Origin: Oscillospiraceae bacterium
GTDB taxonomy: Bacteria > Bacillota > Clostridia > Oscillospirales > Oscillospiraceae
Length of the DNA: 64,000 nucleotides
Assembly: GCA_017434755.1 (NCBI GenBank)
Contig: JAFRER010000007.1
Coordinates: forward strand, 1 to 64,000
Reading direction: 5' to 3'
The notes beneath the pieces were generated by a model. The model did not search any database. It was not told where the DNA came from and was given only the letters and a program-made list of their open reading frames with translations. The position numbers were made by a program, and so were the translations under genes. This document shows, piece after piece, positions 4,363 to 17,284 of the stretch; positions within the stretch are counted from its first letter, which is position 1, and the number at the start of each line of letters is the position of its first letter.

Positions 4363-5034
4363 ATGTTCAAGGGATTTTCCAAAGAGACGAGCGAATTTCT
4401 GTGGGAACTGGCCTTCAACAACGAACGGCCCTGGTTCAACGCCCACAAGCAGGAGTTCGAGACCTATCTGAACCAGCCCCTGCGGGCACTGGCGGCGGAC
4501 ACCTATGCCCTGATGAGCGAGCGGCTTCCGGGAACGGATTTCCGGGTGCACGTCTCCCGGATCTACCGGGACGCCAGACGGCTTTTCGGCAGAGGGCCCT
4601 ACAAGGAGGCAATGTGGTTCACCATCATCCCGGACCGGACATCGGACGATCCGGACTATGACGGCCCCGCCTTCTGGTTCGAGATCCGGGCCGCCTCCTA
4701 CGCCTACGGCATGGGCTACTGGGGCTATCCGCAGGAGATGGAGCGTTTCCGGAAGACCGTGGACGCCAACCCCGCGGCCTTTGAGCGGCTGGCGGAAGAG
4801 ATGGCCGCCCTGCCGGGACTGAAGCTGGAGGGCGAGGACTACAAGCGGCCGAAGGCCGAGAAGACCGGACGGACCGCGGAATGGTACAACAAGAAGCATT
4901 TTTCCCTCAGCCGGCACGGCGATTTCGGCGGAGACCTGCTCTCGCCGGAGCTGCCGAAGATCCTGGCCGACGCCTTCGGCTCGATGATGCCGATGTTCCT
5001 GTTCCTTTCCCATATCAGCTCACGGGAATCCTGA
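4363..5034 (+). CDS. DUF2461 family protein (TIGR02453)
   Basis: The protein is 223 residues and cytoplasmic, with no signal or membrane segment. The N-terminal signature FLWELAFNNERPWFNAHK (about residues 12-29), an RIYRDAR motif near 67-73 and a conserved KRP/HFS C-terminal region identify the DUF2461 family, which is widespread in bacteria and fungi. No biochemical function is established and none is proposed here. It is a single-gene unit with its own promoter and a strong terminator, and it converges on the terminase gene that follows. Confidence 0.85.
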   Translation: MFKGFSKETSEFLWELAFNNERPWFNAHKQEFETYLNQPLRALAADTYALMSERLPGTDFRVHVSRIYRDARRLFGRGPYKEAMWFTIIPDRTSDDPDYDGPAFWFEIRAASYAYGMGYWGYPQEMERFRKTVDANPAAFERLAEEMAALPGLKLEGEDYKRPKAEKTGRTAEWYNKKHFSLSRHGDFGGDLLSPELPKILADAFGSMMPMFLFLSHISSRES

Positions 5035-5048
5035 GCTTTTGCCCGTCG

Positions 5049-5078
5049 ACGGCAGCACTGCACGTGCTGCCGTTTTTT
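5049..5078 (+). terminator. Terminator of the DUF2461 gene
   Basis: A 10-bp perfect stem ACGGCAGCAC/GTGCTGCCGT with a 5-base loop is followed by TTTTTT. The terL stop codon lies 3 bases beyond, so the terminase module abuts it directly. Confidence 0.9.
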
Positions 5079-5080
5079 GT

Positions 5081-6538
5081 TCAGCGCATCCAGATCCGGT
5101 CGCTTTTGAGGAAGGTCTTCCTCTTCTCCAGCGGATCGATGAGGAGGTGCACCGGCTTCGGCGGGATCACGGGACGGATCGGGCGGGACATGCAGGCATA
5201 CCTCCATTCATCGGCCACATGGTCCTCCAGATCGGAATCCATGTCCTCGGGGCAGTGCTCATCGTAGATCATGAGGGGGATGGTGCGGATGAAGGCCTCG
5301 CAGTTGCTGAAGACATACATGCCGGGAAAGCCGTTGTCATCGAACTGCAGTCTGTAATGGCACTGCATCCAACCCGGAATGCGCGCATTATCGCCCGGTT
5401 TGAAATAAATTCCGTACTTTAACCCGGTCTCGGCGATGGACTCACCGTGGGAAGCGTCCCAGATCGAAGGATCCGCAACGCCTTCGATGCGCTTTCCCTT
5501 CAGCCACGGATGCTCCCTTTCGATGCGCGCAACCTCGCGAAACTGCGCGTCGGCGGTCCAGCGCAGACCCTCGTTGGGCGTGCCGTTCCAGCCGTAGAGC
5601 TCGAGGAAGCGGTAGAGGATGCCGTCGAAATCCACGGCCCACCAGCCCACGGAGAAGGGCCGGTTATAGCCGAAATCATAGGAGCGGAAGACGGTCCAGT
5701 TCGCCTGCGGGCCCCTGTCCAGATCGAAGGGTTCGATGACGTGGACGAAGCGGCACTCCTTCCGGAGGACATCCGCGCTGTCCGCGCAGCCGCGCTCACG
5801 GGCGAGGTGCAGGTCCGGCTCGAGGCGGAACTCCTCGAAGAACTGGCCGCGGAACACATCCCACCTGCCGTGGAGCCAGATCTCCCGCAACGCGGGCGGA
5901 AGGGCCTCGAGCTGGCGGAGATAATCCGGGTCGGCCTTCAGGAGGGCTTTGTTGTCGAAGACATTCGACTGAATGAAGCAATACTCGTCCGGCTCCTCGC
6001 CGGGGCTGTATTTCCGGTCGATAAACTGCCGCTTCACCCAGGCGTGGCCCTCGCCGCCGGGGTTGCAGGTATAGCGGATGAGCTTGGGAAAGGGGTTGAC
6101 GCCCCTGACGCAGGCCGTGAGCTTTTTCATCCGCTCCTCCGGCTGCTGGGTGGCCTCGTCCACATAGAGCACGTCGCACTCGGTGCCCTGGAACCTGTCC
6201 GCGTCGCGGTCCGTGTCGCAGTAGCGGAAGAGGATGAGGCTGCCGTTGGGGAAGGTGAGAGTCTTGTCCCGGTCGTTATAGCGGGCGACAGCGTCCGGCG
6301 TGCCGCAGCGGAGCATCTCCAGCATGGGGCGGATATGGTTGGAGGTAAGCTCCGGGTAGGTCTTTCGCACGATCATGATCTTTATGCCGGGACAACTCAG
6401 GGCCTTTATGACGGCGTCCAGCCTGACGGCATGGCTCTTGCCGCCTCCCCTGGCGCCGCCGAAGGCGAGGTATTTGTGCCGGTCGTTGATAAACTGCCAC
6501 TGCTTGGGAGAGGGAGAGAAAAGCTCAAGATCCTTCAT
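5081..6538 (-). CDS. Phage-type terminase large subunit (TerL)
   Basis: This is the ATP-driven DNA-packaging motor and nuclease of tailed phages. It has 485 residues. The N-terminal ATPase carries Walker A GGARGGGKS (about 27-35) and Walker B LYVDEA (about 124-129). The C-terminal RNase H-like nuclease carries the expected acidic positions in SYDFGYN (about 288), VADPSIWD (about 356) and DHVADEW (about 443). All key motifs look intact, so this is not an obvious pseudogene. The start at 6538 (MKDLELF) was chosen because it overlaps the terS stop; the longer frame has no family match. No portal, capsid or tail genes are adjacent, which is unusual. The gene is read with terS as one unit. Confidence 0.92.
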   Translation of the reverse strand: MKDLELFSPSPKQWQFINDRHKYLAFGGARGGGKSHAVRLDAVIKALSCPGIKIMIVRKTYPELTSNHIRPMLEMLRCGTPDAVARYNDRDKTLTFPNGSLILFRYCDTDRDADRFQGTECDVLYVDEATQQPEERMKKLTACVRGVNPFPKLIRYTCNPGGEGHAWVKRQFIDRKYSPGEEPDEYCFIQSNVFDNKALLKADPDYLRQLEALPPALREIWLHGRWDVFRGQFFEEFRLEPDLHLARERGCADSADVLRKECRFVHVIEPFDLDRGPQANWTVFRSYDFGYNRPFSVGWWAVDFDGILYRFLELYGWNGTPNEGLRWTADAQFREVARIEREHPWLKGKRIEGVADPSIWDASHGESIAETGLKYGIYFKPGDNARIPGWMQCHYRLQFDDNGFPGMYVFSNCEAFIRTIPLMIYDEHCPEDMDSDLEDHVADEWRYACMSRPIRPVIPPKPVHLLIDPLEKRKTFLKSDRIWMR

Positions 6539-6968
6539 TTTCCCAGTCCCCGTTGACGAAGACCACGTTGAGGCTCCTGTCATCGGCCTTCCGGTCACAG
6601 GAAAGGAAGCTTTCCAGATTGCCCTGCATGAGAGAAAGGGCTTTCTGCAGCATGCTCAGATCCCGCGGAGCAAAGGGCTCGTCATAGCTCAAGGTCTCCT
6701 CCATCTTTTTCGCGAGGATGCGGCTGAAGCAGACGACCTTCTCCTTCATCTCGGCCACGTAGGCAGCGTCCCGCTCCGCCGCGAGCCGGGCGTACTGTGC
6801 CACGAGCTCCTCCTGATACTTCTGACGGAGGGCGGGCCAGTCCTCCCTGCGGCCATGGCGGGAGATGTTGCTGCTTGAGATGGCGTATTTCGAGCCGAGA
6901 TTCCTGTAGCTCACGGTTCCCGTCACATAATCGTTCTTCACTGCATTCCAGTCGATAACCTTCTTCAT
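6525..6968 (-). CDS. Small terminase subunit-like DNA-binding protein (TerS)
   Basis: This 147-residue protein is encoded just before terL and overlaps it by 14 bases. Its N-terminal part (DWNAVKNDYVTGTVSYRNLG, then SKYAISSSNISRHGRREDW) resembles the helix-turn-helix of small terminases that recognises pac or cos DNA. The C-terminal part is helical and probably mediates oligomerisation. The start at 6968 has GGAGG at ideal spacing; the longer frame to 7031 would cover the promoter. With terL it would form a packaging complex, but the substrate is unknown because no structural genes are present. Confidence 0.8.
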   Translation of the reverse strand: MKKVIDWNAVKNDYVTGTVSYRNLGSKYAISSSNISRHGRREDWPALRQKYQEELVAQYARLAAERDAAYVAEMKEKVVCFSRILAKKMEETLSYDEPFAPRDLSMLQKALSLMQGNLESFLSCDRKADDRSLNVVFVNGDWENEGS

Positions 6969-7029
6969 CAAATACCTCCACATTCTGATCTTTGAACCGG
7001 ATACCACAACGGGCATTTCATTCGACATC

Positions 7030-7059
7030 ATTCTATATCCGGATACCGGGGTATGTCAA
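7030..7059 (-). promoter_or_regulatory. Promoter of terS-terL
   Basis: A perfect TTGACA (7054-7059) and TAGAAT (7030-7035) are 18 bases apart on the minus strand, about 60 bases before the terS start. A 20-bp palindrome begins only 7 bases upstream of the -35 box. Confidence 0.75.
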
Positions 7060-7065
7060 TTGCAG

Positions 7066-7085
7066 AAACACAATATATTGTGTTT
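7066..7085. promoter_or_regulatory. Perfect 20-bp palindrome, candidate operator
   Basis: AAACACAATATATTGTGTTT equals its own reverse complement. It lies just upstream of the terS promoter in the divergent region, as expected for a dimeric regulator site. It shares the ACACAA...TTGTG half-site pattern with the second palindrome at 7111-7124. Confidence 0.7.
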
Positions 7086-7110
7086 ATAGACGCCTATTCA
7101 ACTATATTTC

Positions 7111-7124
7111 CACAACATGTTGTG
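7111..7124. promoter_or_regulatory. Second palindrome (14 bp), candidate operator
   Basis: CACAACATGTTGTG is a perfect palindrome, extended on one side by TTT. Its centre is 42 bp from that of the first palindrome, four helical turns, so the same dimeric protein could bind both sites on one DNA face and loop or cooperate. Confidence 0.65.
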
Positions 7125-7189
7125 TTTCCGCTGCCCGCATGCCTGTCATCACGCCAATGATATCACATCCGGAAACAATCATTCTCCCC

Positions 7190-7228
7190 CCGTAAAAGGA
7201 AAAAGAACCGCCTCTTTCGAGACGGTTC
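7190..7228 (+). repeat. Partial third copy of the repeat flanking the DUF4143 gene
   Basis: CCGTAAAAGGAAAAAGAACC and the following hairpin (CGCCTC TTTC GAGACGG) match 9619-9656 nearly base for base and 11094-11118 in part. The hairpin is followed by only a short pyrimidine tract. The rest of the divergent stretch, 7229-7386, shows no further structure that I can name. Confidence 0.65.
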
Positions 7229-7386
7229 CCTTCCTGTTATTTGATAGGTATTGTATACCGGTATTATTCGGCGCGGCAGGCATAAAGTCAGGCAGCGAGG
7301 ACCGAGGCCCCGGCCTAAACTAAAAAGGCTTTTTGGTCTTTCACCGCTAAGTTCGTTTTTATCCCGGGCATGAGCAGGCAATGTTC

Positions 7387-7415
7387 TTGAAGGGCAAATC
7401 AGTACCTGTTATTAT
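7387..7415 (+). promoter_or_regulatory. Promoter of the HTH / GYW-domain gene pair
   Basis: TTGAAG (7387-7392) and TATTAT (7410-7415) are spaced 17 bases apart, 37 bases before the start at 7452. It points away from the terS promoter. Confidence 0.55.
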
Positions 7416-7451
7416 GATCAAGGAGATGCTCAACGGGAGGAGGTGAAGGGC

Positions 7452-7790
7452 ATGAGCAGATATACGGATGACGATATCCGGGGAATGAAAAGAGTCACCA
7501 TACAGGCGGCGGCACAGTATCTCGGGATTTCTCCTCTTGCGGTAACCCTGGGGATGCGAAACGCATTGCTTCCCATCGGGTTTGCAGTCAAGAATGACGA
7601 AGACAACTACTCGAACTCCTGGCATTATGTGATCGTCCCCGAGCGGCTTATTGCATATAAGTACGGCAGGATCAACGAGATCCAGGTACAGAACATCGAA
7701 GACAATCTCACAGCGATCGTCAAAAGCTTTGAAGAAATTAAGCACGACCTGCTTTTTCTGTTAAAAGAAAACGGGGGATCGGAGGGATAA
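7452..7790 (+). CDS. Small helix-turn-helix / excisionase-like protein, uncharacterised
   Basis: The protein has 112 residues. The N-terminal half (VTIQAAAQYLGISPLAVTLG, about residues 14-33) has the shape of a helix-turn-helix of the excisionase/MerR kind. The middle (NSWHYVIVPERLIAYKYG) looks like the short wing seen in excisionase-like proteins, and the end is an amphipathic helix that may dimerise. ATG at 7452 was chosen because GGAGGAGG lies 8-10 bases upstream; an upstream GTG at 7443 overlaps that site. It is 53 bases before the next gene, with an almost identical ribosome-binding region, so the two are probably co-transcribed. It could bind the two palindromes in the divergent control region. 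Function is not established. Confidence 0.6.
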   Translation: MSRYTDDDIRGMKRVTIQAAAQYLGISPLAVTLGMRNALLPIGFAVKNDEDNYSNSWHYVIVPERLIAYKYGRINEIQVQNIEDNLTAIVKSFEEIKHDLLFLLKENGGSEG

Positions 7791-7843
7791 AACTATTTGA
7801 CAGCCTTTTTGAGCAGAAAAATGAAACGGAGGAGGTGAAAGCA

Positions 7844-9367
7844 TTGGCAGACAAAGGAGGAACAGCAATCACCCGTCAGGCATTATATGATGAGATATGG
7901 ACAGATTCAGCCCGGAAGGTGGCGGAGAAATATGAGATTTCTTACTCCCGTTTTCTGAAAATATGCAAAGAGAACAGCATTCCGGTCCCTCCGTCCGGGT
8001 ATTGGACGAAACTGGAGTTCAACAGGCCTGTTCAAAGAACTCCACTGCCTTCTTCCAAAACAGAGACGATCCTGCTGACTCCCGAAAAGGACCGGCAGAA
8101 GGAAACCGATACGATCATCGCGGAAGAAAGCATTCCGGTATCAGAATCAGATAAAATTGAACTGGAGATCCGGCGTGAGGGAACATCCCCGAAATATGAT
8201 CGGGAGAAGCTGTATAAGGAAGTGTGGGCAGATCCGGTCACAGAAGTAGCCAAGCGGTACCAGATGTCCGATGTCAATTTGCGGAAGATCTGCAAAAAGC
8301 TCGATGTTCCGTTGCCTCCGGCAGGATACTGGGCAAAACTGCGGGCAGGAAAAGAAGTATCCAAGCCGGCTTTGCCTAAACTGAAAGCACCGCCGAATGA
8401 AGACAAACCGAAAACCGGCCAGGCACGCACCCTGCATATAGAGGATTCCGCCCTCTCATTTCTGAGGGAAGATGACCGGCTCAAAGTCATAGACGCTGCC
8501 AGCAAGCTACGGGTCGCCGGGCCGGGTTCCAGACTGTATAAAGATATTTCCGCACAGAAAGAAAAATGTGAGAACTGGCCGGAACAGCAAAAAAAGGGCC
8601 CGTTCCGCTATGGAAAATTCGTAGGAGAAAAGCCGCTGATGGCGGATACTATGTCTCCCAAATCCTTTCCCAGAGCGTTCCATATTCTGGATGCGCTCAT
8701 AAAAGGCATGCTTCCGTTCGGCGCTTCCGTGACGTATGAGTTTGCTTTTCAGGTCAACGGGGAAGTCGTTCCTTTCACCATGTCGGAGGGACAGGATCAG
8801 ATCCCGCATGAAGTGACCCAAGCGGAAAAGCTTCAGCTTCTGAAATATGAAGAGGAAAAGAGGAAGTATTCGTGGGCATCGAAACCGAATATTCCCAAGT
8901 GGGAGCATCCTTGGAACGGCAGACTGACACTGACCGTCAACGGGAAGTACAGGTTCACGGACTGCAGATCCTATGTGCTGGAAGACCGGATCGGCGAGAT
9001 CATGATCGCGTTTTATGAAGCCTCCTATGCGGTCCGGCTGGCACGACTGGAAAAGGAGGAAAAAGAACGGATAGAGGAGGAGAAGCGCCGCAAGGCAGCG
9101 GAGATCCGGGAAAGGTACAATCAGGAGGTCGATTACACGGAAGGGCTTGTCAACGCTGCGGATGATTATGCAACAGCTTGTAAGATCCGAGACTATGTTG
9201 CGGCGGTCAAAGCTTCCGGAAGTGAAAGCGAAGAATGGATCGAGTGGGCAAGCGCCAAGGCAGACTGGTATGATCCGACCGTCTGTGCTAAAGATCCGTA
9301 TTTCGGCAAACGCGAACACACGAAGGATCCGAAATGGAAATCGCCGGAAAAGAGATATCGTTGGTAA
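7844..9367 (+). CDS. Uncharacterised protein with a duplicated LYxEVW...PP.GYW.K domain
   Basis: The protein has 507 residues and no signal or membrane segment. Two copies of a roughly 60-residue domain are visible (about 10-67 and 117-180), each reading LYxEvW..p..kVAekY.iS...L.KICK...iPvPP.GYWtKL followed by a basic Pro-rich tail. Each resembles a helix-turn-helix, so DNA binding is likely. A conserved block follows (FPRAFHILDALIKGMLPFGA...FQVNGEVVPF, about 280-330), then a charged coiled coil (about 400-440) and a basic C-terminus. I recall single-domain relatives in accessory regions of many bacteria, always annotated hypothetical. A GTG at 7835 overlaps the ribosome-binding site, so TTG at 7844 is preferred. 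It ends at a strong terminator. I cannot assign a function. Confidence 0.7.
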   Translation: MADKGGTAITRQALYDEIWTDSARKVAEKYEISYSRFLKICKENSIPVPPSGYWTKLEFNRPVQRTPLPSSKTETILLTPEKDRQKETDTIIAEESIPVSESDKIELEIRREGTSPKYDREKLYKEVWADPVTEVAKRYQMSDVNLRKICKKLDVPLPPAGYWAKLRAGKEVSKPALPKLKAPPNEDKPKTGQARTLHIEDSALSFLREDDRLKVIDAASKLRVAGPGSRLYKDISAQKEKCENWPEQQKKGPFRYGKFVGEKPLMADTMSPKSFPRAFHILDALIKGMLPFGASVTYEFAFQVNGEVVPFTMSEGQDQIPHEVTQAEKLQLLKYEEEKRKYSWASKPNIPKWEHPWNGRLTLTVNGKYRFTDCRSYVLEDRIGEIMIAFYEASYAVRLARLEKEEKERIEEEKRRKAAEIRERYNQEVDYTEGLVNAADDYATACKIRDYVAAVKASGSESEEWIEWASAKADWYDPTVCAKDPYFGKREHTKDPKWKSPEKRYRW

Positions 9368-9453
9368 TAAGCGGCAGAATTCCAATCGGTAATATCTTCT
9401 GTTCCGGGCATAATAATTCCACACGACACGTCATGTCAACAGTTGAGTCGCAG

Positions 9454-9477
9454 AAAAGGTAGAATTCTACCTTTTTT
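9454..9477 (+). terminator. Terminator after the duplicated-domain gene
   Basis: The palindromic hairpin AAAAGGTAGAA/TTCTACCTTTT is followed by further T residues, 87 bases after the stop codon. The intervening 9370-9453 shows nothing else recognisable. Confidence 0.8.
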
Positions 9478-9549
9478 CGAACTATATGCTTTCGGTTTCA
9501 CTAATCCCTGCTTAAATAAAGCAGCAATTCCAGTAATACAATCCCGCAA

Positions 9550-9658
9550 CCCGTATCATTAGAAAAGGATAGAATCAGACCCGCTCCGCCGGGCTCTGAT
9601 CCTGTTCTGAGAAGTGCCGTAAATGGAAAAAGAACCGCCTCTTTCGGGGCGGCTCTTT
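9550..9658 (+). repeat. Direct repeat, copy A (109 bp), flanking the DUF4143 gene
   Basis: It aligns with 11018-11120 over its whole length with few mismatches and small gaps. It contains two hairpins: AGAATCAGA-CCCG paired with CGGGCTCTGAT (about 9570-9603), and GAACCGCC TC TTTC GGGGCGGCTC (about 9632-9656) followed by a T-rich tract. The second hairpin can act as a terminator in either direction. Confidence 0.8.
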
Positions 9659-9716
9659 AATTTCTTTTGCAGTTTTCCTTTTTATCTGCCTGTTTCCTTC
9701 AAAAAACCCTACTTGC

Positions 9717-10967
9717 TTAATCCTTCTCAAGCAGCCAGTTCGCCAAGTCGTGTATCTTGATTCCTTCGAAGTCATAGGTCTCATGCCGGGTGTTCGCCAG
9801 AATCAGCTTTGGATACGCATCCTTGATCTTCAGCAGCGGATCATATTCCCGCTCAAAAGTCTCCTGGCGAGTAATATCGTCACTGACCTGGATATATACT
9901 TTCTCGTTCCCCCGGATTGCTACAAAATCCACTTCTTTCTGATAAAGCTTTCCGACATAAACTTCATATCCCCGCCGCATCAGTTCAATGCAAACGATAT
10001 TCTCATACATCCTGCCATAGTCAAGATTTCTTCTGCCGAGTCTTGCAAACCGGAATCCTGTATCACTCAGATAATACTTGACGGAGGTTTTCAGATACTT
10101 TTTGCCGCGGATATCGTATCTGCGGACACCGTAAAAGACAAATGCATCACATAAGTACTTTATATAATTGCCAACGGTCTTATGGTTCGTAACCACCACG
10201 TTTGCCGTCAGTGTATCGCTGATGTTGTTAGGGGAGGTCAGGCTTGAAACATTGTCCATCATAAAATCCGCCAGATGCTCCAGGGTCGTGGTGTCCGGAA
10301 GGTTATACTTTGTGACCAGATCACGGTTGATGATCGTGTCGTAAACATCTCGAATATAGTTTGTACGGTCTCTATCTGTGCGGTATTCATAGGAGCCGGC
10401 CAAGCCTCCCTTTATCACATACTCATCGAAAAGCTTTGCGGTGTCCTTCTCATCCGCAAAGTAACGGCAGAATTCTGCGAAGCTGAACGGGAAAACATGA
10501 AGCTCTATATATCTTCCTGTGAACAGCGTCGCAAGATCTGAACTCAGAAGGAAGGCATTTGAACCGGTAATATAAAGATCATATTTCCGGGAAGTGTGCA
10601 GACTGTTAATGGCAAGCTCAAACTTTTCGCAGAGCTGCACCTCATCCACAAATACATAGTTCTGCTTTCCCTTGGCATAACGGCCTTCAATATAGTCATA
10701 CAGCGCATGGTATTCCTTAAGGGATTCGTATTTCAGATCGAAGAAATCCACGAATATGATATTGGCGTCCGGCTGTATTTCAGTGATTTTGCTGATAAAC
10801 GCCTTCATCAGTTCAGACTTTCCGCTGCGCCTTACTCCTGTGATAATCTTGATGTCCGGGGTCCCCATAAGATCAAAGAGCCTTTGCAAATATTCCGGTC
10901 TTTCGATATAGTTCACAAACTCACTTCCGAAACTGAAAATTTTTTTAATTTTCGCACCTGCATTCAT
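9717..10967 (-). CDS. AAA_14 / DUF4143 ATPase
   Basis: The protein has up to 416 residues and is cytoplasmic. The P-loop ITGVRRSGKS lies at about 42-51 and Walker B YVFVDEVQ at about 103-110, followed by the sensor-like TGSNAFLLSS. The C-terminal DUF4143 region ends with EVDFVAIRG...IQVS, which resembles a PD-(D/E)xK nuclease-like core. Such ATPases are common in gut anaerobes and archaea as solitary, often variable genes of unknown role. The first Met at 10967 lacks a good ribosome-binding site. GTG at 10916, seven bases after GGAAG, fits the family N-terminus (YIERPEYL) better and may be the true start. The gene is bracketed by near-identical 103-109 bp direct repeats, so it looks like an acquired cassette. 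Confidence 0.85.
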   Translation of the reverse strand: MNAGAKIKKIFSFGSEFVNYIERPEYLQRLFDLMGTPDIKIITGVRRSGKSELMKAFISKITEIQPDANIIFVDFFDLKYESLKEYHALYDYIEGRYAKGKQNYVFVDEVQLCEKFELAINSLHTSRKYDLYITGSNAFLLSSDLATLFTGRYIELHVFPFSFAEFCRYFADEKDTAKLFDEYVIKGGLAGSYEYRTDRDRTNYIRDVYDTIINRDLVTKYNLPDTTTLEHLADFMMDNVSSLTSPNNISDTLTANVVVTNHKTVGNYIKYLCDAFVFYGVRRYDIRGKKYLKTSVKYYLSDTGFRFARLGRRNLDYGRMYENIVCIELMRRGYEVYVGKLYQKEVDFVAIRGNEKVYIQVSDDITRQETFEREYDPLLKIKDAYPKLILANTRHETYDFEGIKIHDLANWLLEKD

Positions 10968-11017
10968 AATCTACTCGAAAACGCTCTGTTTGTCAACGGG
11001 GATATTCTGCGCTGCAC

Positions 11018-11120
11018 CCCGTATCATTTGAAAAGGACAGAATCAGACCCGCTCCGCCGGGCTCTGATTCTGTTCTGAGAAATACCGTAAAATGAACCGC
11101 CTCTTTCGAGACGGCTCTTT
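11018..11120 (+). repeat. Direct repeat, copy B (103 bp), flanking the DUF4143 gene
   Basis: It begins CCCGTATCATT like copy A, shares the 20-base core CAGACCCGCTCCGCCGGGCT and ends with the same GAACCGCC TCTTTC GAGACGGCTCTT hairpin. Same orientation as copy A. The region from here to 11311 holds no gene; I see only an AT-rich spacer with a weak inverted repeat near 11236-11262. Confidence 0.8.
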
Positions 11121-11311
11121 TCCTGTTCTGACCTCTTTACTGATCTATCCTGTCTATTTCCTAACCTATACTATTGTTTCAATAAAAATGAGCACTGTGT
11201 TACAGATGCAACGTTTAGATATAAAACAAGTCCTTCACATCCCCCAGTTTGGAAATGTGAGAGCCTTTTCTTTTTTCACCATTATCTTTTGATAAGCAAG
11301 CCGACCGATAT

Positions 11312-11340
11312 TTGACAGGATATTTTCCCTCTGATACGAT
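11312..11340 (+). promoter_or_regulatory. Promoter of the EFR1 ferredoxin gene
   Basis: A perfect TTGACA (11312-11317) and TACGAT (11335-11340) with 17-base spacing lie 40 bases before the start codon. Confidence 0.75.
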
Positions 11341-11379
11341 ATCTTTAAAGTGTTCAGGCTATCTGAAGGAGGATCCGCC

Positions 11380-12120
11380 ATGATCTTTTATTTCACCGGA
11401 ACCGGCAACTCCCTGTTCGCCGCGCAGAAGCTGGCAGAGGAGGGCGAGGAAATCATCTCCATCGTCGAGGCCCTGCGCAGCAAGACCTTTTCCTACGTTC
11501 TGAAAGAAAACGAAAAGCTCGGTTTCGTGTTCCCCGTATATTTCTACACAGTGAGCGACCCCGTCCTGGAGTTCGTCCGGAAGCTGACCGTGGAGAACGC
11601 GGGCTTCGTCTACGCCGTCATCCCCTGCGGGGCGAGCATCGGCGCGGCGGGCGGCTTTCTGAAGAGCGAGCTGAAGAAGCGAGGTTTGGAGCTGCAGCGG
11701 GTCGATGCGCTGGTCGTGCCCGACGGCGCGCTGCTCTTCTACGATATCGATTCGCCGGAGAAGATGGAACAGCAACTGGAGGCGGCGGAGAAAGAACTTG
11801 CCACCATCCGGCAGGCCATCGACAGGCGCGAGGGCAACGACATCCGAGGGAGCGCACAGGCAGGAATGATCGGTCTGGCAGGCTATCACGCCTTTATGGG
11901 CACGAAAGCCTTTTATGCGGATGAAAAATGCATCGGCTGCGGCAAGTGCGCCTCGATCTGCCCTGCCGGGGCGATCGAAATGGCCGAAGGCCGCCCTGCC
12001 TGGACGAAAAAGAAATGTTTCAAGTGCTGCGGGTGCATCAACCGCTGCCCGGTCTCGGCCATCCAATACGGCAAGAAGACCGCCGAGCGCGGCCGGTACG
12101 TGAACCCGGTGCTGAAGTAA
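11380..12120 (+). CDS. EFR1 family ferrodoxin (flavodoxin-like plus two 4Fe-4S clusters)
   Basis: A 246-residue cytoplasmic electron-transfer protein. The N-terminal flavodoxin-like domain starts MIFYFTGTGNS, the FMN phosphate loop. The C-terminal bacterial ferredoxin domain has two cluster motifs, CIGCGKCASICP (about 184-195) and CFKCCGCINRCP (about 213-224). This is the typical EFR1 layout in Clostridia, whose physiological partner is unknown. ATG at 11380 has GGAGG seven bases upstream; an in-frame Met at 11350 lies next to the promoter and is unlikely. It is a single-gene unit. Confidence 0.9.
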   Translation: MIFYFTGTGNSLFAAQKLAEEGEEIISIVEALRSKTFSYVLKENEKLGFVFPVYFYTVSDPVLEFVRKLTVENAGFVYAVIPCGASIGAAGGFLKSELKKRGLELQRVDALVVPDGALLFYDIDSPEKMEQQLEAAEKELATIRQAIDRREGNDIRGSAQAGMIGLAGYHAFMGTKAFYADEKCIGCGKCASICPAGAIEMAEGRPAWTKKKCFKCCGCINRCPVSAIQYGKKTAERGRYVNPVLK

Positions 12121-12202
12121 GCGGATCTGCCGTTTCATCGGGCCAAGCCCGAACGGGAAAACGACTCTCGAAAAAATATTTACGATAAACGATAATTTAT
12201 AC

Positions 12203-12231
12203 TTGACAAATGATAATCGCCATGATACAGT
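12203..12231 (+). promoter_or_regulatory. Promoter of the DUF2975-HTH operon, within CGATAA repeats
   Basis: TTGACA (12203-12208) and TACAGT (12226-12231) are spaced 17 bases apart. Around the promoter the motif CGATAA or TGATAA recurs (about 12183, 12190, 12211 and 12245), twice at 7-base spacing just upstream of the -35 box. Such repeats suggest operator sites, plausibly for the HTH protein encoded by the operon. Confidence 0.6.
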
Positions 12232-12288
12232 GTTCTCGAAATTAACGATAAACATTAAATCTTTATCGAAATCGAAGGAGAACACCTC

Positions 12289-12894
12289 ATGGAAAACAAG
12301 AAACTCATCAAGAATGCAACGATCATCGACCGCATCCTAAAGATCCTGCAGGGATTTGCCGCTGCCGGCGTCATCGTCTCTGCCGTCTTCATCCCGCTGA
12401 CCCTGATCTTCGGGGAGAAGGTCATCGCAAGCGCTGACAATCTGACGGTCGGCGAGCTGCAGTTCAAGCTGTCCGGCGACATGTCCTCCTATCTGGACAT
12501 GGCAAGGATCAAGTCCAGCATCGTGGTGATGCTGATCGGAGCGATCCTGACGGCGGCTGCCGTCTGGTACTGCCTGCGCGTCCTGCGGGAGATCCTGGCG
12601 CCGATGAAGGAAGGACAGCCTTTCGCCAGCGGCATGGCGGACAAGATCCGCAAGCTCGGATGGACCGTGCTGGCCACCGGAGCGATCGCCGAGATCGGCG
12701 GTATGATCACTTCCGTATTCGAGCTGCGCGCCTATCAGCTCGACAAGATCGTGAACCGGGAGATCGTCTCCGGAATAACCTTTAACTACAGCTTCGGCCT
12801 CTGGTTCGTCTTCGCGGCGCTGATCATCTTCTTCCTGTCCTATGTCTTCCGTTATGGGGAAGCGCTGCAGAAGGAATCGGACGAGACGCTCTGA
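12289..12894 (+). CDS. DUF2975 family membrane protein
   Basis: The protein has 201 residues with about four transmembrane segments (near 21-43, 78-98, 119-140 and 169-189) and a polar loop between the first two. The pattern and the immediately downstream small XRE-type regulator are the standard DUF2975 arrangement in Firmicutes. Its function is unknown; membrane sensing or control of the HTH partner has been presumed only from the pairing. A GGAG site lies just before ATG 12289. Confidence 0.8.
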   Translation: MENKKLIKNATIIDRILKILQGFAAAGVIVSAVFIPLTLIFGEKVIASADNLTVGELQFKLSGDMSSYLDMARIKSSIVVMLIGAILTAAAVWYCLRVLREILAPMKEGQPFASGMADKIRKLGWTVLATGAIAEIGGMITSVFELRAYQLDKIVNREIVSGITFNYSFGLWFVFAALIIFFLSYVFRYGEALQKESDETL

Positions 12895-12904
12895 GGTAAG
12901 AGAA

Positions 12905-13141
12905 ATGGGAAAGATCATTCTGCGGCTGGACCGCGTGATGGCAGATCGCAAGATCAGCCTCAAGGACCTGTCAGATCAGGTCGGCGTATCAAACGTAAAC
13001 CTTTCCAAAATGAAGACCGGAAAGATCAGCGCGATCCGCTTCTCTACCCTGGAAGCGATCTGCGAAGCCCTGCACTGCCAGCCGGGAGACATCCTGGAAT
13101 ATGATCCCGACGCGAGCGGGGAGGAGGAAGAAACAGCATAA
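12905..13141 (+). CDS. Small XRE-family helix-turn-helix regulator (YozG-like)
   Basis: The protein has 78 residues. It is a single Cro/CI-type domain: LKDLSDQVGVSNVNLSKMKTG forms the helix-turn-helix (about 21-41), followed by FSTLEAICEALHCQPGDIL, the hallmark of the HTH_26 group, and a short acidic tail. It starts 10 bases after the DUF2975 gene with GAGGTAAGAG upstream, so the two are co-translated from one transcript. It probably autoregulates the CGATAA-rich promoter. Confidence 0.9.
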   Translation: MGKIILRLDRVMADRKISLKDLSDQVGVSNVNLSKMKTGKISAIRFSTLEAICEALHCQPGDILEYDPDASGEEEETA

Positions 13142-13172
13142 AAAGGTCGTCCCTGTCGGGACGGCCTTTTTA
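13141..13172 (+). terminator. Terminator of the DUF2975-HTH operon
   Basis: A 13-bp stem AAAAGGTCGTCCC/GGGACGGCCTTTT with one G-U pair and a TGTC loop starts at the stop codon itself. Confidence 0.9.
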
Positions 13173-13205
13173 TATGCGTCTGCAGGGAGCGCCGCGATGT
13201 TGTGT

Positions 13206-13251
13206 TTCAAATAAATTTGAACGATTTATGAAATGTTTCATAATTCATAAA
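13206..13251. promoter_or_regulatory. Two phased inverted repeats upstream of the recombinase-like gene
   Basis: TTCAAAT-AA-ATTTGAA (13206-13221) and TTATGAAA-TG-TTTCATAA (13226-13243) are perfect inverted repeats with centres 21 bp apart, two helical turns. An extra half site TTCATAAA (13244-13251) abuts the second. The array ends 6 bases before the -35 box of a consensus promoter, so it is probably an operator or a recombinase-type binding site. Confidence 0.7.
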
Positions 13252-13257
13252 AACCTA

Positions 13258-13286
13258 TTGACACGCTTTTTCTTCTGTGCTATGAT
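13258..13286 (+). promoter_or_regulatory. Promoter of the recombinase-like gene
   Basis: TTGACA (13258-13263) and TATGAT (13281-13286) are separated by 17 bases, 31 bases before the start codon at 13318. Confidence 0.8.
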
Positions 13287-13317
13287 GCGCGCATAACGAT
13301 GAAAGGGGTGCATCCGG

Positions 13318-14055
13318 ATGAAAAATGTCCGCATCGAGGAACTGAATGATCTGCCGTCCGTCCTTGAGGAACTGGCGCCGGGCGACTGCGTGGAGGCCGA
13401 AAGTCTCGCCCTGCTCGCAGACAGCGGGAAGGAACTGCTGGACGTCCTTGCGGAGATCGGCTGGCGCGGCGCGGACTTTGTCAGCCTGCGGGAAGGCATC
13501 GATACACGCGGAGGACAGGGAACGTCCTTTTTCGCGCTGTGCAGGGCTCTGCAGGAATCGGACCTGTTCTCACGCCGCCGCGACGGTGTTGAACGCGCAA
13601 AGGCAGAAGGCCGGTACAAGGGCCGCAAGCCGATCGCCGTGGACGGGGGTCTGTTCGATTCCGTCGTAGCGCTCTGGCAGAGCGGCCAGATCACCGCACG
13701 GGAAGCCATGGCGCGGCTGGATCTGAAGCCGAACACCTTTTACCGCCGCATCAAAGAAATGGAGGAACTGAAAATGAAAGACTATAAGAAAGTGGAACAG
13801 GAGCTCCGGGATGAGATCAAGGAAGCGGCCAAACAGAGCCGCAAGGATCTCGATGATCTGAAAAAGCAGGTCAAGGCCGAGGCCAAGGAGATCAAAAAGG
13901 CCGCCGACGAGAAGCTGGAACTCCACGACGTAGAGCGCGAGATGCGCCACGACCGCGCCCGCGCCGAGGCCGAGCACCACGACGCCGTCCGTCAGATGAA
14001 AAAGGACGTGGAAGCCGAGGCAAAAGAACTGAAAAAGCTGATGGAGAACAGCTGA
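13318..14055 (+). CDS. Degenerate serine-recombinase-like protein fused to HTH and coiled coil
   Basis: The protein has 245 residues. Residues about 33-105 match the second half of a resolvase/invertase catalytic domain (LLDVLAEIGWRGADFVSLRE, then GIDT), the following E-helix (RRRDGVERAKAEGRYKGRKP) and the C-terminal Hin-like helix-turn-helix (GQITAREAMARLDLKPNTFY). The N-terminal strand with the catalytic Ser and first Arg residues is missing and replaced by an acidic segment, so strand exchange is not expected. After residue 148 a highly charged coiled coil of nearly 100 residues follows. An in-frame ATG at 13774 with its own GGAGGA site could yield that coiled coil separately. It may act as a DNA-binding regulator or scaffold rather than a recombinase. 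Confidence 0.7.
   Translation: MKNVRIEELNDLPSVLEELAPGDCVEAESLALLADSGKELLDVLAEIGWRGADFVSLREGIDTRGGQGTSFFALCRALQESDLFSRRRDGVERAKAEGRYKGRKPIAVDGGLFDSVVALWQSGQITAREAMARLDLKPNTFYRRIKEMEELKMKDYKKVEQELRDEIKEAAKQSRKDLDDLKKQVKAEAKEIKKAADEKLELHDVEREMRHDRARAEAEHHDAVRQMKKDVEAEAKELKKLMENS
13761..13776 (+). promoter_or_regulatory. Internal ribosome-binding site and start codon
   Basis: GGAGGA followed by 7 bases and ATG (13774-13776) lies in frame inside the recombinase-like gene, exactly at the junction between the HTH part and the coiled coil. Translation from here would give a 93-residue charged coiled-coil protein beginning MKDYKKVEQ. Confidence 0.45.
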
Positions 14056-14082
14056 AGCCGCTTCACGGCATGAGAAAAACCA

Positions 14083-14120
14083 AACCGGCGCCCTGTTTCA
14101 CGCAGCGCGCCGGTTCCTTT
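14083..14120 (+). terminator. Probable terminator after the recombinase-like gene
   Basis: A 9-bp stem AACCGGCGC/GCGCCGGTT with a 15-base loop is followed by a short CCTTTACC tract. The weak T-run makes it a modest terminator. Confidence 0.6.
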
Positions 14121-14145
14121 ACCCTGTAAACGGAGGAAGAGCAAA

Positions 14146-14817
14146 ATGGATCGGATCCCGCTTCGGAAACGGATTCTTCCCGGCTATACGCACGGCGAGG
14201 AGATCATGAATATGGTCACCCATATCGTCGGAGGGGCCATCAGCCTGCCGGTCCTCGTCATCGGGATCGTTCTTTCTGCAAAGCACCATAATCCATGGGC
14301 GGTCGTCAGCTGCTGCATCTACGGGGCGACCCTGCTCTGGCTTTATACGATGTCCAGCGTGTACCACGGGCTGGCAGACAACACCGGCAAACGCGTGCTG
14401 CAGGTGCTGGACCACTGCACGATCTACGCGCTGATTGCGGGGACCTACACGCCGATCCTGCTGGTGTCGATCCGGCCGGTGTATCCGGCCCTTGCATGGA
14501 CGGTCTTCGGCTGCGAGTGGGGTCTTGGCGCAGCCGCCGCCACGCTGACGGCCATCGACCTGAAAAAGTTCGGAAAGGTCTCGATGGCCTGCTATATCGC
14601 GATGGGCTGGCTGATCGTGATCGCGCTCGGGCCGACGATCAGAACGGTCGGCATGAGCGGATTTCTGTGGCTGCTTGCGGGCGGCATCGCCTATACCGCC
14701 GGTGCGGTCCTTTACGGGATCGGGAAGAAACGGCGCTACTTCCACAGCATCTTTCACCTTTTTGTTCTTCTGGGCAGCCTGCTGCAATCCGTCAGCATCC
14801 TGTTTTATGTTCTGTAG
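14146..14817 (+). CDS. Hemolysin III family (YqfA/PAQR-like) membrane protein
   Basis: The protein has 223 residues and about seven transmembrane helices. Family marks are EEIMNMVTHIVGG near residues 18-30, SSVYHGL (about 69-75), LDHCTIYALIAGTYTP (about 89-104) and HSIFHLFVLLGS near the C-terminus. The conserved His residues in the last motif and in SxxxH are those that bind zinc in PAQR proteins. The Bacillus cereus founder was named for hemolysis, but the physiological role in most bacteria is unknown. ATG at 14146 has GGAGG upstream at 9-base spacing. Confidence 0.9.
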   Translation: MDRIPLRKRILPGYTHGEEIMNMVTHIVGGAISLPVLVIGIVLSAKHHNPWAVVSCCIYGATLLWLYTMSSVYHGLADNTGKRVLQVLDHCTIYALIAGTYTPILLVSIRPVYPALAWTVFGCEWGLGAAAATLTAIDLKKFGKVSMACYIAMGWLIVIALGPTIRTVGMSGFLWLLAGGIAYTAGAVLYGIGKKRRYFHSIFHLFVLLGSLLQSVSILFYVL

Positions 14818-14963
14818 GAGATCTCCGGAGGACGAACAGGAGAAAACATTTCCGGAATTCCGGACCGTATGGTATAATCCATTCAGACAAAGCGGGATGT
14901 CCGCGATCCTGATGCGGCGCTTTTCAGAATGCGTGAAAGAACAAGCGGTGAGGAGAACAGGAA

Positions 14964-15632
14964 ATGAATCTGCTCTGTAAGATGACCGGCCACAAATGGG
15001 ACCGGTGCAAGTGTGTCCGCTGCGGCGAGACACGGGACGAAGGCCACGAATGGCTCGGCTGCAAATGCCTGATCTGCGGCAGGACACGGGATGAGGAACA
15101 CCGGTGGACCTATCCCGGAGGGAACACAAAACTCTGCGTCCGGAAATGCAGCCGCTGCGGCAAAACGGAGAAACGGCAGCACCGGATGGAGAATGTTCCC
15201 GGAAAGTGTTATGAGGAATGCGCGGAGTGCGGCTATAAGACCGCGCCGGTGCACAGCTGGGACGGCTGCAGGTGTACGGTGTGCGGCGAGCAGCGGGATC
15301 AGAACCACAGATGGGTCCGGAACGGATGCACGGAGACGTGCTCGATCTGCGGGAAAACGCGGACAGACGATTCCCTGCACGACTGGGTCCGGGAAGGCTG
15401 CACGGAGCGGTGCAGCGCCTGCGGAAAAGAACGGGAGGCCCATGACTACCAGTTCGTCCGGAAAGAGACGGAATACGGGACCGGAAAGTGCTCCACGGTG
15501 TACGCCAACGACGACTATGCGTGCAACTTCTGCAACACGCCCAACGCCTGCCTGAAATATCCCCAGACGGACAAGGACCTCTATAAATGCTCCCGATGCG
15601 GGAAAGAAAAATGGAATATCTACCGGCCGTAA
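14964..15632 (+). CDS. Cys-rich protein with about eight to nine CxxCG repeats
   Basis: The protein has 222 residues, with no signal peptide or membrane segment. It consists of repeats of roughly 20-25 residues with the pattern C.CxxCGxxRdexHxW.. (for example CKCVRCGETRDEGHEW, CKCLICGRTRDEEHRW, CRCTVCGEQRDQNHRW, CSICGKTRTDDSLHDW). Later units are degenerate, and the C-terminus has CNFCNTPNAC and CSRCGKEKWN. Each unit has the Cys pair and His expected of a small zinc site, so an elongated zinc-binding array is likely. Related CxxCG repeat proteins occur in gut Firmicutes without known function. It has its own AG-rich ribosome-binding site (GAGGAGAAC) and is followed by a strong terminator. Confidence 0.75.
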   Translation: MNLLCKMTGHKWDRCKCVRCGETRDEGHEWLGCKCLICGRTRDEEHRWTYPGGNTKLCVRKCSRCGKTEKRQHRMENVPGKCYEECAECGYKTAPVHSWDGCRCTVCGEQRDQNHRWVRNGCTETCSICGKTRTDDSLHDWVREGCTERCSACGKEREAHDYQFVRKETEYGTGKCSTVYANDDYACNFCNTPNACLKYPQTDKDLYKCSRCGKEKWNIYRP

Positions 15633-15648
15633 GAGGCAGAAGATAAAA

Positions 15649-15682
15649 AACAGGAACCGTGAAAACACGGTTCCTGTTCTTT
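15649..15682 (+). terminator. Bidirectional terminator between the Cys-rich and flavoprotein genes
   Basis: A perfect 13-bp stem AACAGGAACCGTG/CACGGTTCCTGTT with an AAAA loop is followed by TCTTTGTT on the plus strand and by TTTTTTATC on the minus strand, so it can serve both converging genes. Confidence 0.85.
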
Positions 15683-15697
15683 GTTCCGGGCAACCTG

Positions 15698-17284
15698 TCA
15701 TTTCCTATGCTTCCGGATCACGGCTTCGGCGCAGCGCATGCCGTCCACGGCGGCGGAGCTGATGCCGCCGGCATAACCGGCGCCCTCGCCGCAGGGATAA
15801 AGGCCCTTCAGCTCCGAAGAGAGGTCTTCTTCCCGGAGGATTCGCACGGGCGAGGAGGAGCGGGTCTCGGGCGCGGTGAGGACCGCGTCCGGCGCATCGA
15901 AGCCCCGGAGCTTTTTCCCCAGCTCGGGGATGGCATTGGCAAGGACGTAGGTGATTCGCTCGGGAAGCACACGGCGGAGTTCGCCCCAGGTGACGCCGGG
16001 ACGGTAGGACGGGGTGACCTTTCCGGGGCCCTCACTCGGCCGGTTCTCCAGAAAATCGCCGAGGAGCTGGGCGGGGGCGTGATAATTGCCGCCGCCGCAT
16101 GCGAAGGCACGCTGTTCGATCTCCCGCTGCCAGCGCATGCCGGCCAGGACACCCTCGCCGGGGAAGTCCTCGGTATGGAGCGTGACGAGGAGGGCGGAAT
16201 TGGCGTTGGCCCCATCGCGGGCGGAATTGCTCATGCCGTTGGTGACCACGCCGCCGCTCTCGGAGGCCGCGGCGATGACCTCGCCGCCGGGGCACATGCA
16301 GAAGGTATAGGCGCTGGTGCCGTCCGGCAGGCGGACGTTCAGGGAATAGTCCGCAGGAGGAAGATCAAGGTCCGGGTCGCCGTATTGGGCCGCGTCGATA
16401 TCGCACTGCCGGTGCTCGATGCGCACGCCCATGGAGAAGGGCTTGCGCTCCATGGCGATGCCGCTGCGGAAGAGCATTTCGAAGGTGTCCCGTGCGGAAT
16501 GGCCTATGGCAAGGATCAGGTCCTCACAGGGCAACTCATAGTCTCCTTCCGGGCCGCTCACTTTCAGACCACAGAGCCTGCTCTCCGAAGTGATCAGTCC
16601 GTCGAGCCGGGTATGGAAGCGGATCTCCCCGCCGAGGGAGAGGATCTCCTCCCGGAAGGAGCGGACCACATCGACGAGGATGTCCGTGCCCACATGGGGC
16701 TTGGCGTCATAGGTGACGCTCTCGGGGGCGCCGTGGGCATGGAACTGCTCCAGCACCCAGAAGAGCCGTTCGTCATTGATGCCGGTATTGAGCTTGCCGT
16801 CGGAAAAGGTGCCGGCGCCGCCCTCGCCGAACTGGACATTGGCTTTTTCGTCCAGGGGTCCGCCGCTGCGGAAGGCGTTCACGGCCTTTGTCCGCTCCTC
16901 CACGCAGGCGCCGCGCTCCAGCACGAGGGGCCGGGCACCGGCGCGGGCAAGCACCAGGGCAGCAAACATCCCCGCAGGGCCGAAGCCCGCGATGACCGGC
17001 CGCGGCGCGTCCTTCGGATATTCCGGTATGCGGTATTCTTTCTTCTGATACGCGCTTACGTCCTTGTGTTTCCGTTTCAGGATCTGCCTGTCGCCGCCCT
17101 TGATCTCCGCGGCGACGGAATACACATAATGTATATCGCCCTTTTTGCGGGCGTCCAGTGATTTTTTGAGGATCTTGAGCTCCGCGATGCGGGACGCGTC
17201 CGTTCCCGCCCTGGCAGCGGCAAGCTCCTTGAGCCTGCTCTCGTCCCCGCCGGGGTCCAGACGCAGATTTCTGATTTGGATCAT
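15698..17284 (-). CDS. FAD-dependent dehydrogenase (COG2509-type)
   Basis: The protein has 528 residues and is cytoplasmic. A short N-terminal ferredoxin-fold-like region (MIQIRNLRLDPG... KILKKSLDARKKGDIHYVYS) precedes the FAD-binding Rossmann motif VIAGFGPAGMFAALVLARAG (about 95-114). The sequence NVQFGEGGAGTFSDGKLNTG and the C-terminal YPCGEGAGYAGGISSAAVDG complete the flavin site. These are the marks of the uncharacterised COG2509 dehydrogenases common in Clostridia. The start at 17284 overlaps the stop of the upstream flavoprotein gene by 4 bases, so both are translated together. The natural substrate is unknown. Confidence 0.9.
   Translation of the reverse strand: MIQIRNLRLDPGGDESRLKELAAARAGTDASRIAELKILKKSLDARKKGDIHYVYSVAAEIKGGDRQILKRKHKDVSAYQKKEYRIPEYPKDAPRPVIAGFGPAGMFAALVLARAGARPLVLERGACVEERTKAVNAFRSGGPLDEKANVQFGEGGAGTFSDGKLNTGINDERLFWVLEQFHAHGAPESVTYDAKPHVGTDILVDVVRSFREEILSLGGEIRFHTRLDGLITSESRLCGLKVSGPEGDYELPCEDLILAIGHSARDTFEMLFRSGIAMERKPFSMGVRIEHRQCDIDAAQYGDPDLDLPPADYSLNVRLPDGTSAYTFCMCPGGEVIAAASESGGVVTNGMSNSARDGANANSALLVTLHTEDFPGEGVLAGMRWQREIEQRAFACGGGNYHAPAQLLGDFLENRPSEGPGKVTPSYRPGVTWGELRRVLPERITYVLANAIPELGKKLRGFDAPDAVLTAPETRSSSPVRILREEDLSSELKGLYPCGEGAGYAGGISSAAVDGMRCAEAVIRKHRK

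Follow-up and report, generated by a model that had tools for sequence, protein, structure and literature searches.

The window analysed here comprises 64,000 nt of contig JAFRER010000007.1 from a gut bacterium of the Oscillospiraceae and contains a pair of genes, P1 and P2, on the forward strand. P1 (7452..7790, + strand, ATG start) encodes a small helix-turn-helix (HTH)-like protein of 112 aa. P2 (7844..9367, + strand, TTG start) encodes a protein of 507 aa that is composed of two HTH-like modules, a central domain, a coiled coil-like stretch, and a C-terminal domain. An alternative, longer version of P2 would start with a GTG at 7835, i.e. inside the ribosome-binding site of P2. The initial annotation, which was made from the sequence alone, had described nearly identical ribosome-binding sites for both genes, and indeed the same sequence, AGGAGGTGA, is present at 7438..7446 (+ strand) for P1 and at 7830..7838 (+ strand) for P2, in both cases ending five bases 5′ of the start codon. 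In the whole window it occurs three times, compared with 0.48 expected occurrences. A special ribosome-binding-site switch was considered and rejected, because both sites are merely near-perfect Shine-Dalgarno sequences. The genes are separated by a gap of only 53 nt, and none of the terminator-like sites predicted for the window is located in this gap. Co-transcription, which had been stated as a fact, is therefore likely. Judged from pN/pS values, P1 (0.01-0.11) and P2 (0.09-0.25) are both under purifying selection; these values stem from a comparison of the window with two further loci (L003 and L004), in which the synonymous sites are almost saturated. P1 is the best-conserved part of the unit in the alignments, with a mean pairwise identity of 69% versus 51-61% for the domains of P2 (16 loci).

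P2 contains two copies of a module of about 60 residues, as had been proposed. Module A (residues about 8-68, 7865..8047, + strand) is the copy that tracks P1, and module B (residues about 118-180, 8195..8383, + strand) is RWP-RK-like and is the module of the solo relatives. The two are 41% identical over 63 aa (E 9e-20), and all of the motifs named in the initial annotation were found in both of them (LYDEIW/LYKEVW, VAEKY/VAKRY, KICK/KICK, and GYWTKL/GYWAKL). The duplication is old, because the two modules fall into separate subfamilies by score in every two-module protein examined. The description of the modules as DNA-binding-like is in agreement with HTH similarities that remain below the Pfam cut-off. 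The RWP-RK model (PF02042) matches module B with an E-value of 4e-4 and 20.7 bits, under the cut-off of 29.3 bits, and it was found at E ≤ 0.1 in 12 of 34 P2 relatives; the rest of P2 is without a family. When 26 module sequences were compared with Pfam at E ≤ 1, 16 resembled RWP-RK and seven HTH_6, and hhalign gave a value of 82% for module B and HTH_17. Apart from HTH families, the Pfam matches of the 34 relatives are weak and scattered.

The central domain (residues about 195-395, 8426..9028, + strand), for which no known fold was found, and the coiled coil-like stretch are both conserved, as had been noted before. Two residues of P2, R277 and E315, are invariant in the 34 relatives. The coiled coil-like stretch and the C-terminal domain, which has the pattern W..WA..KADW.DP, together occupy 9029..9310 (+ strand). 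A PDB profile search matched the coiled coil-like stretch with CdsO (E 9e-4), a coiled-coil protein, and R, W, and P residues are conserved in the C-terminal domain. The best PDB match of the central domain had an E-value of 0.17 and nothing was significant, the C-terminal domain had no significant match, and the PDB profile searches with whole P2, the modules, P1, the central domain, and the C-terminus retrieved no useful relative. A nuclease function of P2 was considered and rejected, because no nuclease model of Pfam, PHROG, PADLOC, or NCBIfam matched except for a module that is common to HNH endonucleases. This module of about 47 aa is C-terminal in phage HNH homing endonucleases (phrog_15471) and matches residues 117-163 of P2 (E 7e-4); in contrast to these enzymes, no nuclease part was matched in P2, and its module is N-terminal and duplicated. 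P2 may nevertheless have a remote homology to nucleases, and an enzyme could be concealed in the central domain.

P1 had been described as excisionase-like. The hhalign comparison of P1 with HTH_17 (PF12728) gave 85% (P 6e-6, 27 columns), compared with a maximum of 15.4% for 20 column shuffles of the P1 alignment as a control, so that the assignment to an HTH_17-type helix-turn-helix is retained in this indirect form, whereas the Pfam HTH_17 model had no match at E ≤ 1 in any of 16 P1 proteins. Residues 10-76 of P1 match phrog_6058 (E 5.6e-12), a group of phage proteins without assigned function. One relative with 30% identity to P1 is encoded by the Flavonifractor phage Cormatin, between regulator and replication genes; a P2-like protein of this phage was not among the phage matches listed. 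From these profile comparisons, both P1 and P2 look like helix-turn-helix DNA binders.

The gene pair resides in an accessory insertion of about 10.7 kb (5035..15697, both ends being approximate), which is flanked by a DUF2461 gene on one side and by an FAD-oxidoreductase-like gene on the other. By its DUF2461 protein (82%), genome G886 (locus L137) is the closest of 81 genomes, and its alignment with the window matches up to position 5003 and again from position 15723, with about 87 bp in between in G886. The window contains no tRNA genes, and the ends of the insertion have no repeats longer than 10 bp. Within the insertion, a TerS-TerL terminase pair with terminase family matches (Pfam, PHROG) lies at 5081-7031 on the minus strand and thus diverges from P1-P2, as had been recognized; no phage structural genes were found by Pfam among the scanned non-terminase genes. 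The initial annotation had gone further and joined the four genes into one compact system. This view had to be abandoned, because the terminases do not recur beside P1-P2: relatives of TerS or TerL were not found in 46 other P2 loci (4-20 kb per locus, a set without the viral loci L178-L194). Furthermore, TerL is common in the genus, with 56 of 81 genomes carrying the family, versus P2 in 3 of the 61 genomes of the genus that were searched, and the genome of the window has a second TerL copy.

The four-gene system had also been credited with a switch of its own. The divergent region does contain two strong palindromes, 42 bp apart (7066-7085 and 7111-7127); however, they lie just upstream of 7059-7030 (minus strand), where the terminase pair has a promoter-like site. 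Their 12-base core is confined to this region of the window (0.13 occurrences expected, with up to one mismatch), the palindrome occurs with one mismatch at one further place in the genome (G000:C12:193767), and no exact match is present at any other independent locus among 106. The palindromes look like an operator of the phage-derived terminase pair, and not like a switch of P1-P2.

Downstream of P2, an AAA_14/DUF4143 ATPase gene (9717-10967, minus strand) matches the PADLOC candidate PDC-S01 with an E-value of 1.8e-149. It is the sole defence-like neighbour among the genes scanned in the window, and a relative of it also adjoins P1-P2 in locus L049. Further on, a partial resolvase-like protein is encoded at 13318-14055 (+ strand), whose match is confined to the later portion of the Resolvase domain (profile 52-145) and which has a long charged tail. 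A 26-bp element is present in three nearly identical copies (7200-7225, 9627-9652, and 11089-11114; 0 expected by chance), which all have one orientation and bracket P1-P2 and the ATPase gene like cassette borders. The element at 9627-9652 also scores as a terminator-like hairpin, and no other independent locus contains an exact copy of a 16-base core of the elements.

The P2 family is sporadic in its occurrence. A housekeeping role was rejected, because P2 is present in a single copy in its own genome and in only 5 of 99 relatives, own genome included. For comparison, the fractions were 3 of 61 in the same genus, 9 of 391 genomes in a sample of the class, and 16 of 398 genomes in a sample of the phylum. 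Among plasmid records 62 match P2, but the match covers 80% or more of the query in just one of them, and ten phage records match in part. The relatives in other phyla have a single module, are located on plasmids, and are without assigned function, in line with what the initial annotation had stated. Neither P1 nor P2 reaches a Pfam cut-off, both are without a match in NCBIfam at E ≤ 1, and no component family of PADLOC-DB 2.0.0 matches them at E ≤ 1. In open-licence papers no publication could be tied to the family, a kind of search that is weak for a family without a name. According to these comparisons, P1-P2 is an unnamed family without a model in the scanned libraries.

P2 proteins occur in two forms, i.e. 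with module A (with or without module B) and accompanied by P1, or with module B alone and without P1. For 46 loci with a recognisable module (near-copies of L002, i.e. L007 and L008, and the fragments L009, L013, and L015 are included, and L069, which has no module, is omitted), 24 P2 proteins have module A and 22 have module B only. P1 is encoded directly upstream of P2 in 24 of the 24 loci with module A, near full-length in 22 of them, as a partial gene in L009, and as a remnant in L056 (about 10560-11300), where P1 was lost naturally by an internal deletion that left its start and its end, and P2 stayed open. By contrast, P1 accompanies none of the 22 proteins with module B only. A scan of viral contigs for P1 alone yielded 15 loci, and all 15 have a module-A P2 directly downstream, which is cut by the contig end in L185 and has a short frame in L189. 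Twelve of these loci are new, because two contigs were already known and L181 has the same P2 as L058 in the tree. P1 was detected in 8 of the 398 genomes of the phylum sample; in seven of them it accompanies a module-A P2, and in the eighth (G579) its match is only partial. Five module-A proteins without module B (L052, L053, L061, L182, and L186) retain P1, showing that P1 follows A and not B. In a tree of the shared P2 domains, the P1 carriers (31 of 53 rows) occupy one side of a single branch with a support of 100/99. The pairing of P1 and module A fits a single association that was kept over a long radiation, as opposed to many independent origins.

To characterize the neighbourhood of P2, 148 proteins from 37 loci were collected (L001, L007, L008, L009, L013, L015, L068, L004, L063, and L069 are not part of this set), together with 134 of 143 control proteins; nine proteins of more than 1003 aa were dropped, and six control regions that did not exist were not replaced. 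The bulk PADLOC tally does not discriminate between the two sets by number, with 144 models in the neighbours versus 155 in the controls. The 25 models that were listed for each set differ in kind and include AbiEi/AbiEii, TniQ, AriA, and PDC candidates for the neighbours, and reverse-transcriptase, PD-T4-6, mad6, and MkoA models for the controls. The Pfam tally of the neighbours contains AbiEii (5), Fic (2), TniQ (2), and TnsD (2).

Because the PADLOC tally was not informative in this respect, three families were counted across whole genomes of 26 carriers. Within 10 kb of P2 we found 4 of 27 AbiEii matches (3 genomes, 0.17 expected), 11 of 145 serine recombinase matches (5 genomes, 0.81 expected), and 5 of 32 N6 methylase matches (4 genomes, 0.20 expected), with the expectations based on rounded genome sizes. 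Within 20 kb the values were 5 (0.24 expected), 22 (1.51 expected), and 8 (0.35 expected), respectively. The genome counts are safer than the hit counts, because some matches are pieces of one gene. The second AbiEii match in G355 is partial, and in G295 an N6_Mtase match of 1.7e-10, kept despite the label of 1e-10, belongs to a gene of which another piece had been counted before. The neighbours of the P2 homologues are therefore not random, being enriched in defence and mobility genes, and on this point the proposal of the initial annotation stands. Ten neighbours that were picked by eye were then scanned individually, and eight had strong PADLOC matches, i.e. JetC, AbiLi, AbiLii, type I restriction, Vsr, type II methylase, GajA, and PifA; the other two are a helicase with weaker defence matches and the protein cl62 without a match. 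Some P2 relatives are thus located near genes of Wadjet, Gabija, AbiL, or type I restriction systems.

A serine recombinase is encoded within 5 kb of P2 in 15 of 33 loci with P1 (one not evaluable), versus 2 of 19 controls, so that the cargo position as such is no proof of a defence function. The profile used was built from recombinases beside P2, and the count omits L178, L179, and L193, which repeat L001, L002, and L105; L181, which repeats L058, was kept. Separated by origin, the fractions are 6 of 20 for genomic loci with P1, 9 of 13 for the further viral loci with P1 (one not evaluable), and 4 of 21 for loci with module B only. In the viral contigs L181, L188, and L190, lysis-type genes (named by eye) are found on the far side of the recombinases, which suggests a cargo position at the end of a prophage. 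In L011 and L014, solo P2 genes come after three clustered transposition-type genes, of which one is of the TniQ/TnsD type, and in L012 a few genes lie in between; in this they are similar to the cargo of Tn7-like transposons; the available part of PMC8649781, which treats such cargo, names no family like P2.

P1-P2 can be described as a self-contained two-gene cargo of prophage-type elements and defence islands. We favour the reading that it is an autonomous DNA-binding unit without a recognised nuclease that would probably act against phages or other elements, and we assign a probability of roughly 0.4 to it. A stand-alone DNA-binding unit is favoured because no catalytic family was recognised, both proteins are HTH-like, the orientation of the neighbours is not fixed, and the cargo position is shared with defence genes. 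In 11 of 33 loci, the gene called immediately after P1-P2 is encoded by the other strand, as would suit a unit that is autonomous. P2 would dimerise via its coiled coil and would read DNA with up to two HTH modules, and P1 might set the specificity by binding beside or onto module A. As no catalytic family was recognised, the complex would occupy the DNA instead of cutting it, and expression or replication of the incoming element would be blocked. The central domain of P2 may serve as a sensor or as a contact surface.

The HTH-like nature of both proteins, the failure to recognise a catalytic family, and the presence of several different defence systems among the neighbours would also be expected of a transcriptional regulator that controls cargo or defence genes in its vicinity and senses a ligand through the central domain. 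Such a role is possible, yet we regard it as rather unlikely. It would resemble that of the BrxR/WYL-domain regulators, HTH proteins that are also found beside several unrelated defence systems; PMC9122601 reports that known defence systems are found together with 48% of the BrxR homologues. P2 precedes a defence-like gene on the same strand in some loci, i.e. a PifA-like gene in L014 (distance 56 nt), a helicase-like gene in L011 (120 nt), and an AbiLi gene in L053 (366 nt). However, a gene on the same strand follows P1-P2 in 22 of 33 loci and precedes it in 24 of 33, as determined with a simple script that takes the longest ORF and also yields spurious antisense genes, and the unit thus has no leader position. 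In addition, the neighbours vary between loci, and no second locus was found to have the paired palindromes of the window. P2 differs from BrxR in that it can carry two modules and has a small HTH protein as its dedicated partner, an operator common to the P1-P2 loci was not found, and Pfam detected no WYL domain in P2 or its 34 relatives.

The excisionase-type HTH of P1 and the higher frequency of serine recombinases within 5 kb, at viral loci with P1 in particular (9 of 13, compared with 6 of 20 at genomic loci and 2 of 19 in the controls), would be explained if P1-P2 were an accessory or directionality factor for the adjacent recombinases, or had another role in element maintenance. We consider this unlikely, because the DNA examined contains no recombinase match at 12 of the 20 genomic loci with P1, the gene matched in the window is resolvase-like but partial and lies at a distance of about 4 kb, and the role would not fit the solo relatives that are located after TniQ/TnsD-type genes or near Wadjet. 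If P1-P2 were a regulator or a recombination factor, it would account for part of the control or the movement of the islands. A toxin-antitoxin pair with P1 as the antitoxin is very improbable: the small DNA-binding-like gene that precedes a larger one, the sporadic occurrence on viral-type contigs, and the AbiEii (5) and Fic (2) genes in the 148 neighbours would be compatible with it, but P2 is open in L056 with its P1 remnant, module-B-only relatives exist without P1, and P1 is more conserved than P2, which is unusual for an antitoxin.

Defence islands and prophage ends carry many unnamed genes, and P1-P2 is a defined, recurrent two-gene unit among them that obeys a clear rule, i.e. P1 accompanies module A. 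Because of this rule, the lack of a library model, and the statistically supported context of defence and mobile genes, the unit can be directly cloned and tested. If the preferred reading of an autonomous unit with a role in immunity is correct, it would act by DNA reading through HTH modules, without a recognised nuclease.

A wider version of this reading, which we offer as a tentative and in its entirety doubtful proposal, would view P2 as the platform of a nuclease-free immune unit that reads foreign DNA, that passes from one to another of prophages, Tn7-like elements, and Wadjet islands, and whose module chooses the partner, P1 in the case of module A and cl62 for some forms with module B. 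In the preferred reading, too, solo P2 proteins with module B would pair with other partners, such as the cl62 protein that is encoded beside Wadjet and in phages. The cl62 protein has no match in PADLOC at 1e-5 and none in Pfam at 0.01. Pairs of cl62 and a solo module-B P2 are located in L054 (7767-10764), L055 (5192-8189), L105 (4349-7371), and L194 (6001-8945). In L054 and L055, the P2 gene overlaps the end of the cl62 gene, which encodes 559-564 aa. The JetC protein of Wadjet was confirmed by PADLOC in L054 (E 0), and L055 contains all or most of the same four neighbouring clusters. The phage record PV036453.1 also carries cl62 together with a module-B P2, with an identity of 42-55% for cl62. 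A scan of viral contigs for cl62 retrieved two loci, both of which have a module-B P2 directly downstream, and one of them is 100% identical to PV036453.1.
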